From the IMG/VR virus record IMGVR_UViG_3300025138_000327, positions 1-24,901 of that record: a DNA stretch of 24,901 bases, one strand, 5' to 3'. A program made the position numbers and the translations under genes. This document shows, one piece after another, positions 22,535-23,745 of the stretch. The number at the start of each line of letters is the position of its first letter. Positions within the stretch are counted from its first letter, which is position 1. The notes below the pieces were generated by a model. The model was given only the letters and a program-made list of their open reading frames with translations, was not told where the DNA came from and did no database searches. Source of the stretch: a virus.

Positions 22535-22957
22535 CTACTCCTCAAAGTTGTTAATCTTATTTACTTTGACTATATGCTTGATATCTTCGTTATCTAACAT
22601 ATAACCTTTAACATCATCCCACTTGATCGAGTCATCAAAGATAATCCTTCTCAAGTTCCCTCGAATGCCTGGATAGGCAGATTTCTTTCTACTCTCTACA
22701 TACCCTAGCTCTTCTAACTTCTTTAGTTGGTTAAAGACATTCTGATAGCTTGTTTGTAACTTACTCGCCATTGTCCTCAAGCCAACAATACTAAATCCTT
22801 GTTTGTTACAGTAGGCTGCTAATATACCCAGTGTTCTTATATTGGCGGCAGATACTTTCTTATCTATAATTGCTTTGAACGGCAACACAACAAAGTGTCT
22901 ATGATCCTTATTCCTTAACTTCTTTATCTCTATAGATTCAGGTATCTTATATTCCAT
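22535..22957 (-). CDS. Winged-helix DNA-binding protein (regulator or replication protein)
   Basis: First gene of the leftward array. The core has VVLPFKAIIDKKVSAANIRT and LGILAAYCNKQGF, a recognition helix-turn-helix (GLRTMASKLQTSYQNVFNQL), then KKLEELGYVESRKK and a wing region. This is the layout of MarR-like or replication-initiator winged helices in phages. The frame is open to an ATG at 22975, but the promoter -10 box lies on those codons. The predicted start of transcription coincides with the second ATG (22957), so I take this as the start: 140 residues and a leaderless mRNA. Next to a DnaA-box cluster, it may act on the origin. Confidence 0.75.
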   Translation of the reverse strand: MEYKIPESIEIKKLRNKDHRHFVVLPFKAIIDKKVSAANIRTLGILAAYCNKQGFSIVGLRTMASKLQTSYQNVFNQLKKLEELGYVESRKKSAYPGIRGNLRRIIFDDSIKWDDVKGYMLDNEDIKHIVKVNKINNFEE

Positions 22958-22963
22958 ACAATA

Positions 22964-22991
22964 AGTATATCTCATAGATATTCGTGGTCAA
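22964..22991 (-). promoter_or_regulatory. Sigma-70-like promoter of the leftward array
   Basis: On the minus strand TTGACC (22991-22986), 16 bases, then TATACT (22969-22964). Six bases further is the A of ATG at 22957, so transcription should start at or next to the start codon. Both boxes are 5/6 matches to consensus. Confidence 0.65.
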
Positions 22992-23004
22992 GTAAATAAA
23001 CCAA

Positions 23005-23032
23005 TTGACTTATCTGCTCAATACTGTAAATT
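23005..23032 (+). promoter_or_regulatory. Sigma-70-like promoter, rightward, divergent
   Basis: TTGACT (23005-23010), 16 bases, then TAAATT (23027-23032). The predicted start is near 23038-23040, two to four bases before the GGGG that opens the folded segment at 23042. Its -35 box is 13 bases from that of the leftward promoter, so the two may compete or share an operator. Confidence 0.5.
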
Positions 23033-23038
23033 AATAAA

Positions 23039-23252
23039 TACGGGGCCATTACCCAGCCCTCCCATCGGTAGATAGTGACCAAGGGAATAAACGAGTTTAG
23101 CCGCAGAGATTACCTCGCCAGACAAAACATTAGTCATAAGGAGTACAGGAATCGTGGAAGCGGAGGTTAATAACCTTTACTAGATAAACGAGAGCTATCC
23201 CTCCTTTTTAAGGGAGTGACCCCATATCGAAAATACTCTTTTTCTATACGGG
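23039..23252 (+). ncRNA. Candidate structured untranslated RNA next to the origin
   Basis: A segment of about 210 bases, clearly GC-richer (around half in its first 60 bases) than its surroundings. A long-range closing stem pairs 23042-23054 with 23212-23223: GGGG/CCCC, then CATT with AGTG, then CCC/GGG, one mismatch, one bulge. Inside are a hairpin 23060-23086 (TCCC/GGGA and GGT/ACC) and a long arm 23109-23118 with 23160-23171 (ATTACCTCGC against GCGGAGGTTAAT, two bulges). A further hairpin at 23221-23252 shares three bases with the closing stem, so the two exclude each other. The promoter at 23005 would start the RNA exactly at the first stem. No known RNA family is recognised; it could also act as single-stranded DNA at the origin. 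Confidence 0.4.
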
Positions 23253-23295
23253 TTAGGTCTTCTGTCGCTTTTAACTATCAAGGTAGAGTCAATAG

Positions 23296-23360
23296 CGTAA
23301 CGATAATATGTTGTCATATTAGTCTTTATAAAGACATGTCTTAAAACATATCGTAACGAT
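23296..23360. repeat. Nested palindromes flanked by CGTAACGAT repeats
   Basis: Two copies of CGTAACGAT (23296-23304 and 23352-23360) flank a compound palindrome. GTCTTTATAAAGAC (23322-23335) and AAGACATGTCTT (23331-23342) are perfect and overlap. An outer imperfect inverted repeat pairs ATATGTT (23306-23312) with AACATAT (23345-23351). This is the layout of a binding site for a dimeric protein or of an origin hairpin. Confidence 0.6.
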
Positions 23361-23437
23361 CAGTCAGTCAACAATTCCTTATAAACAGCTTTTTGAGATT
23401 ATCAGCAAAAATTTGTGTATGACACCCTATATATGTA

Positions 23438-23521
23438 GTGGGGGTACGGGGGGGGCAAAGGTCAAGTTATCCACAGGGTTATCCACAGAAATAGGGCAAG
23501 TTATCCACATGTTCTTCCACA
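23438..23521 (+). other. DnaA-box cluster, putative replication origin
   Basis: Three perfect DnaA boxes TTATCCACA in the same direction at 23467-23475, 23479-23487 and 23501-23509, and a fourth near-match (TCTTCCACA, 7/9) at 23513-23521. Start-to-start spacings are 12, 22 and 12 bases. A G-run (GGGGGTACGGGGGGGG, 23440-23455) stands just upstream. An AT-rich stretch follows, as expected for an unwinding element. It lies where gene direction switches. Three exact 9-mers so close together are very unlikely by chance. Confidence 0.75.
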
Positions 23522-23745
23522 GTTAATTATTGCGACCTGGTCGAATGCTAGACAAATGGTATACATACTTTTTGAACTAGCTTATATCAATCATCATTTA
23601 ATATGATATGTAAACTGTATCAATGACAATCAATTGACAACGCCATGATTAAATAAAGTATTGCATTTTAAAAAGATATCAATTAAACTACATTCAAGCC
23701 GACCGAATAGGGCGGTATTTATAAACTTTAAAAGGTACATAAACA
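23522..23745 (+). other. AT-rich region and leader of the rightward genes
   Basis: About 220 AT-rich bases without a gene. TATCAAT occurs three times (23585, 23618, 23677). TTGACA at 23634-23639 is a perfect -35 box but no good -10 box follows at the right distance. A hairpin (CCGACC/GGGCGG, 23699-23715) precedes the first gene, and AAAGGTAC gives its ribosome site. The stretch is suited to be the origin's unwinding element and the promoter region of the rightward genes. Confidence 0.45.

Follow-up and report, generated by a model that had tools for sequence, protein, structure and literature searches.

Comparison of a viral intergenic stretch with its homologues indicates that the plus strand very probably carries an RNA gene that is conserved and pseudoknotted. 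The stretch belongs to a 24,901-base virus sequence (IMG/VR record IMGVR_UViG_3300025138_000327), the whole of which was analysed and is termed here the window. As predicted from patterns of paired substitution, the RNA adopts a compact double-pseudoknot fold, which consists of the hairpins P1, P2, P5 and P6, a domain closed by P3a, two copies of the motif AUAAAC and two loop pairings (termed PK1 and PK2). As judged from Rfam 15 and open-access literature, the RNA class is previously undescribed, phage RNAs of this broad kind having precedents in GOLLD and ROOL; sequence matches indicate that it is widespread among MEP301-type aquatic phages and occurs in some others. Regarding its role, roughly even chances are given here to a stand-alone RNA that would bind a protein in trans early in infection.

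The structural genes of the window (terminase, head-tail adaptor, capsid and tail proteins) are podovirus-like and lie on the minus strand. The closest cultured relative is Methylophilales phage MEP301 (87% identity for the large terminase and 77% for the capsid protein), which infects the marine OM43 clade and is reported to lack an RNA polymerase of its own (PMC8024684). In the window the RNA occupies a gap that has a leftward winged-helix gene on one side and rightward genes on the other. An initial annotation, made from the window alone, had described this stretch as a GC-richer island that no protein gene explains; both points hold, the GC content being 0.40 at 23001-23500 versus 0.34 and 0.28 in the flanking stretches, and ORFs of at least 50 aa being absent from 22976-23745. 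The neighbours of the RNA are genes for an O-like initiator, an SSB-like protein and RusA, the first of which is represented in the window by the following gene:

22535..22975, minus strand: replication-initiator-like winged-helix protein, 146 aa

PHROG matches to this protein are weak, and they are stronger for its homologue MEP301 gp55 (37% identical), whose matches, at about 1e-7, include O-like and further initiation families. The RNA gene belongs to the replication module, where it adjoins the O-like initiator.

A BLASTN search against phage records yielded one intergenic match of interest, in MEP301, the alignment running from window position 23039 on. Homologous loci were gathered via the initiator and RusA genes, which gave dozens of RNA homologues; these contain many indels, and local matches among them repeatedly start at or very close to 23039. 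The 5' core, searched as a pattern, is present in 111 IMG/VR viral contigs, and the RNA also occurs in cultured OM43 phage MEP301. On the RusA side, 52 of 78 loci contain it and most of the others are too short on that side; two apparent absences (L019 and L051) have an extra upstream gene and come from contigs that stop short of the RNA site. Among the relatives, no contig was found that clearly spans the site yet lacks the RNA, and the loci searched have a single copy each. The related cultured phages Hodr and SI2 gave no match at a significant score. With two exact patterns, no true copy turned up in 84,980 species genomes of bacteria and archaea, a search that diverged copies would escape; the lone match (to the second pattern, the first giving none), in a Bacteroidales MAG, was unsupported by the covariance model and was set aside as chance. 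Given its presence in a cultured OM43 phage and in 111 or more viral contigs, with no clear RNA-less relative, the RNA probably matters to these phages. OM43 methylotrophs are abundant, and MEP301 together with its OM43 host provides a system in which the role of the RNA can be tested.

Homologue limits and covariation define the following predicted features, in which 23261 marks the end of conservation:

23040..23261, plus strand: structured RNA, beginning just ahead of P1 and running through the conserved GGGUUAGGUCUU
23043-23046 / 23056-23059, plus strand: hairpin P1 (GGGC / GCCC)
23051..23054, plus strand: PK1 5' strand, ACCC in the P1 loop, pairing with GGGU 23250-23253
23060-23063 / 23083-23086 and 23067-23069 / 23078-23080, plus strand: hairpin P2 (UCCC / GGGA and GGU / ACC)
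23071..23076, plus strand: PK2 5' strand, GAUAGU in the P2 loop
23087..23092, plus strand: motif AUAAAC, copy 1, invariant in alignment A3
23092..23183, plus strand: domain closed by P3a (C23092-G23183, G23095-C23180, U23096-A23179), the P3a pairs covarying
23101-23104 / 23160-23163, plus strand: P3, within the P3a domain (CCGC / GCGG)
23165-23175, plus strand: P4, within the P3a domain
23183..23193, plus strand: motif GAUAAACGAGA, copy 2, with GAUAAAC and AGA invariant in alignment A3
23194..23199, plus strand: PK2 3' strand, GCUAUC, identified by covariation
23201..23216, plus strand: hairpin P5, variable in sequence and conserved in pairing
23220..23252, plus strand: hairpin P6, into which the tail folds and whose base overlaps the PK1 strand
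23250..23253, plus strand: PK1 3' strand, GGGU, identified by covariation, with an alternative pairing in P6

Across relatives the RNA is about 160-240 bases long, and the groups of relatives differ widely in its middle part, so that the pairs they conserve are informative. P1 is 99.3% paired, with compensatory changes at two pairs, and P2 is 100% paired, five of its seven pairs having changed on both sides. The loops of these hairpins pair over long spans, that of P1 with a partner 199 bases away and that of P2 with a strand 123 bases away, which follows the second AUAAAC motif. Among 77 sequences PK1 occurs as ACCC/GGGU (71), ACCU/AGGU (5) and GCCC/GGGC (1), the last version being found in an independent phage (L127) and in L250. 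PK2 is the more variable of the two: all 16 distinct combinations of loop and partner in these 77 sequences (for example GAUAGC/GCUAUC, GAGCAU/AUGCUC, GCUUGC/GCAAGC, GUCUGC/GCAGAC and GGUAU/AUACC) are completely paired. P3 likewise occurs in several versions (CCGC/GCGG, CUGC/GCAG, CGAC/GUCG, CGUG/CACG, UGUC/GACA and AGCU/AGCU), which were chosen by a best-match search without a control. A P5 helix of at least 4 bp can be formed in 48 of 49 distinct sequences, as compared with a shuffled mean of 13.7 and a maximum of 26 in 500 shuffles. In L250, A-U takes the place of a P1 pair that does not vary in the alignment, and in another member of the family (L249, at about 133-242) the internal loop of P2 carries a hairpin-forming insertion of about 50 nt.

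Taken over 38 full sequences, 98.7% of the cells of P1, P2 and both pseudoknots are paired, and 88 cells are changed on both sides versus 15.8 after shuffling. For 35 distinct cores, which include new groups and the P3a pairs, 92.9% of cells are paired over 26 pairs, and 122 cells are changed on both sides versus 27.4, none of 500 shuffles being as good; these shuffles ignore relatedness, which is retained in a slid control where shifting the partner by one base lowers pairing to 46% or less. The strand is assigned from wobble pairs: since there are 25 G-U cells versus 2 A-C cells, it is the plus strand that corresponds to the RNA. This unusually clean covariation of the pseudoknots leaves the architecture ready for bench work. 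Moreover, 37 positions are invariant in a core of about 95, and this, together with the nested pseudoknots, resembles the constraint on a ribozyme; a self-cleaving or otherwise catalytic RNA is nevertheless very improbable, given the absence of any Rfam ribozyme match and of any cleavage site that could be named as a candidate.

The initial annotation had proposed a structured RNA that begins at the same base, and compensatory changes in homologues, its own test, are indeed present in P1, P2, P3a, PK1 and PK2; that is, comparison supports the RNA by way of helices other than those it had drawn. Its 11-pair closing stem (23042-23054/23212-23223) can be drawn and is present in the minimum-energy fold. 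This stem is confined to the clade of the window, most members of which keep it intact, and has no compensatory changes; over 38 sequences it was rejected on account of uncompensated breaks in L010, L015 and L018 and of its absence outside that clade. It also overlaps bases of the P1 and PK1 strands. The expected excess of folding stability over shuffled sequence did not appear, z-scores being 0.15 for 23039-23252, 0.57 for 23030-23260 and -1.09 for 23042-23225 (that is, from +0.6 to -1.1), with similar values, near zero, on the minus strand. These scores are not decisive, because pseudoknots lie outside the folding model; had the energy test been used alone, the case would have failed.

Two exclusive folds had also been suggested, the closing stem competing with the next hairpin. 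That particular switch falls with the closing stem, which comparison does not support; what stands is a different overlap, in which the GGGU of PK1 can instead pair within P6. More generally, PK1 and PK2 could compete with P6 and with a 3' helix (termed P7, in which the PK2 strand pairs with the 3' tail), the state of the RNA setting downstream transcription or translation. The overlap of GGGU with P6 fits such a two-state switch, as does the use of the PK2 strand by P7, one pair of which covaries. Helices of P6 that end on GGG are moderately more frequent than in shuffles, but all three G are used in only some of the sequences; apart from its single covarying pair, P7 has paired cells barely above those of shuffles; and there is no constant downstream gene for a switch to control. 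A switch of this kind is accordingly rated as quite improbable.

When the window and nine relatives were searched against Rfam 15 (4227 families), none matched at the gathering score, in keeping with the suggestion that the RNA is new. Permissive Rfam searches with three members (the window and two outliers) gave chance-level matches or none; a minus-strand match to snR77 was far under threshold and was dismissed as chance. Within the literature covered (open-access PMC), the MEP301 paper does not contain the terms intergenic or non-coding (PMC8024684). The nearest precedents, ROOL and GOLLD, are structured RNAs of phages and prophages, of unknown function, that were discovered by comparative sequence analysis, measure about 660 to more than 800 nt, form multimeric cages, occur near tRNA genes and are represented by Rfam profiles (PMC12286853). 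The present RNA is likewise phage-encoded, structured and found comparatively; in contrast to them it is about 160-240 nt long, lies in the replication module and matches no Rfam profile. Among phage RNAs tied to replication, which it also resembles, the lambda OOP promoter matters for replication control and PreS acts on host dnaN; these RNAs are short (about 88 nt for PreS) and act by antisense or Hfq-dependent means (PMC12197685), whereas the present RNA has a conserved pseudoknotted fold. Another system for comparison is phage phi29. Its packaging RNA, likewise structured and encoded by the phage, is similar in size and also shows loop pairing; the phages considered here, in contrast, carry a conventional large terminase, and the covariation of their RNA would fit loop pairing within one molecule or between two copies alike.

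Upstream of the RNA there is a match to a bacterial promoter, which stops just short of 23040:

23005..23032, plus strand: sigma-70-type promoter, by sequence match, with -35 TTGACT at 23005-23010, -10 TAAATT at 23027-23032 and a spacer of 16

The predicted transcript start would thus lie one or a few bases before P1; in MEP301 the plus-strand start would be near record position 33432. Among 59 distinct upstream regions from relatives, most have promoter-like hexamers at the equivalent position, and the mean promoter score of the 59 is 8.83, as compared with 7.48 in shuffles that preserve base composition only (maximum of 200 shuffles, 7.88). The match is poor in L143 and L162, in L168 and in the group of L195, L208 and L225. 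A rightward promoter at the start of the RNA, as had been annotated, is therefore borne out in its placement across most relatives. Its description as divergent applies to the window clade, where the initiator gene lies to the left; in MEP301 and in a freshwater-like group (a convenience label for L145, L148, L153, L164, L176, L193, L217 and others) the initiator gene sits on the downstream side, convergent with the RNA. Five loci (L145, L153, L164, L202 and L217) have an inverted repeat between -35 and -10, the arms of which change together (GCAC..GTGC, GCAG..CTGC) and which is perhaps an operator.

At the 3' side, terminator-like hairpins followed by T-runs (about -8 to -19 kcal/mol) occur in several relatives about 50-110 bases past the conserved part; in the window, a terminator was sought within 330 nt downstream of the RNA and none was found. 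What lies beyond varies. The RNA of the window clade faces rightward genes. An ORF with a DUF1289 domain comes next in many marine relatives and in MEP301, and in 25 of 66 relatives overall. The freshwater-like group has no conserved rightward ORF after the RNA, and in L143 and L162, which belong to a more distant phage type, the RNA precedes a rightward operon, presumably of recombination genes (named from reading the ORFs). The DUF1289 protein of MEP301 (33681-33881, plus strand; L002 4251-4451) is unannotated, with a Pfam E-value of 1e-9, the record having gp54 on the opposite strand. Given these differing arrangements and the many relatives without a rightward gene directly behind it, the RNA is not the leader of one gene. 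A general role as leader of DUF1289 was rejected on the count of 25 in 66. A cis-regulatory leader or riboswitch would be expected to keep a constant position before a controlled gene, which neither that count nor the convergent gene in the freshwater-like group supports.

A stand-alone RNA would account for these arrangements as follows. Host RNA polymerase would make the RNA early, and the RNA would act by itself rather than as a leader, its two conserved AUAAAC motifs perhaps forming a platform for a protein bound in trans. Because the RNA gene sits in the replication module, the likeliest partners would be replication or transcription proteins, of the phage or of the host. The terminator-like hairpins with T-runs, which close the RNA unit in several relatives, support this reading. 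Against it, the RNA points toward a rightward operon in the window, in MEP301 and in the groups looked at, an orientation that also fits a cis-acting element. A bolder proposal, tentative and on the whole doubtful, is a new class of phage RNA that acts without a phage protein: as infection begins, its two-state double-pseudoknot fold would re-program a central machine of the host, either RNA polymerase or the replication initiation complex.

The main rival to trans action, given that the predicted +1 is where the RNA begins and that the RNA is directed at the rightward early operon, is action in cis in the manner of the put elements of phage HK022, whereby the start of an early transcript alters elongation so that host polymerase reads through terminators. 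The put RNA is about 70 nt long, forms two hairpins and lies at the very 5' end of an early transcript that the host polymerase synthesizes. The present RNA resembles it as a folded RNA that would lie behind a promoter, and terminator-like hairpins downstream in several relatives, as well as the reported lack of a phage polymerase in MEP301, would suit read-through. Yet it is three times longer than put, contains two long-range pseudoknots and is present in a single copy per locus. Moreover, in MEP301 and the freshwater-like group the convergent initiator gene stands between the RNA and the rightward genes; therefore read-through would first yield antisense RNA. Such a mechanism is considered unlikely, though less so than the switch; should the RNA turn out to work by antitermination, it would represent a novel form within that kind.

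The locus had been placed at an origin of replication, and part of that placement fits: an O-like initiator is adjacent, and some members have DnaA boxes nearby. Two downstream features are relevant here:

23398-23465: second conserved DNA element, AAAAACTAGCAAAAATTTGAGTG...ACCC...G or C run...AAAGGT
23467, 23479 and 23501 (23467..23509), plus strand: three perfect DnaA boxes TTATCCACA, in the same orientation, the sole perfect copies in the window

A transcript that opens or primes an origin, as does RNA II of plasmid ColE1, would agree with the adjacent initiator and with the G-run and DnaA boxes that lie, in the window clade, about 400-680 nt past the RNA start. Plasmid origin RNAs are folded as well, and the present RNA resembles RNA II in being directed toward an origin region. 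RNA II becomes a primer through a persistent hybrid at a fixed site. No such fixed homopolymer or hybrid site exists downstream of the present RNA, the run being G in some relatives and C, that is, on the other strand, in other close ones, a change ill-suited to a polar RNA-DNA hybrid. Furthermore, two or more DnaA boxes occur in just 12 of 66 relatives, and in several relatives terminator-like hairpins intervene between the RNA and the run. Because of the switch from G to C and the rarity of DnaA boxes the case for an origin primer is weakened, and such a role is regarded as improbable, falling between put-like action and the two-state switch.

Of 66 relatives, 56 have the second DNA element after the RNA, and the element persists where the overlapping DUF1289 ORF has been lost; it may be an origin or a packaging site. 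Its homopolymer run differs between G and C among close relatives at the same place, the flanks not being inverted, as is seen in L004 and L012 and in L052 and L026 at about 400-550 nt from the RNA start. In L028 the AAAACTGGGAAAAATTTGAGT element is tandemly duplicated downstream of the RNA.
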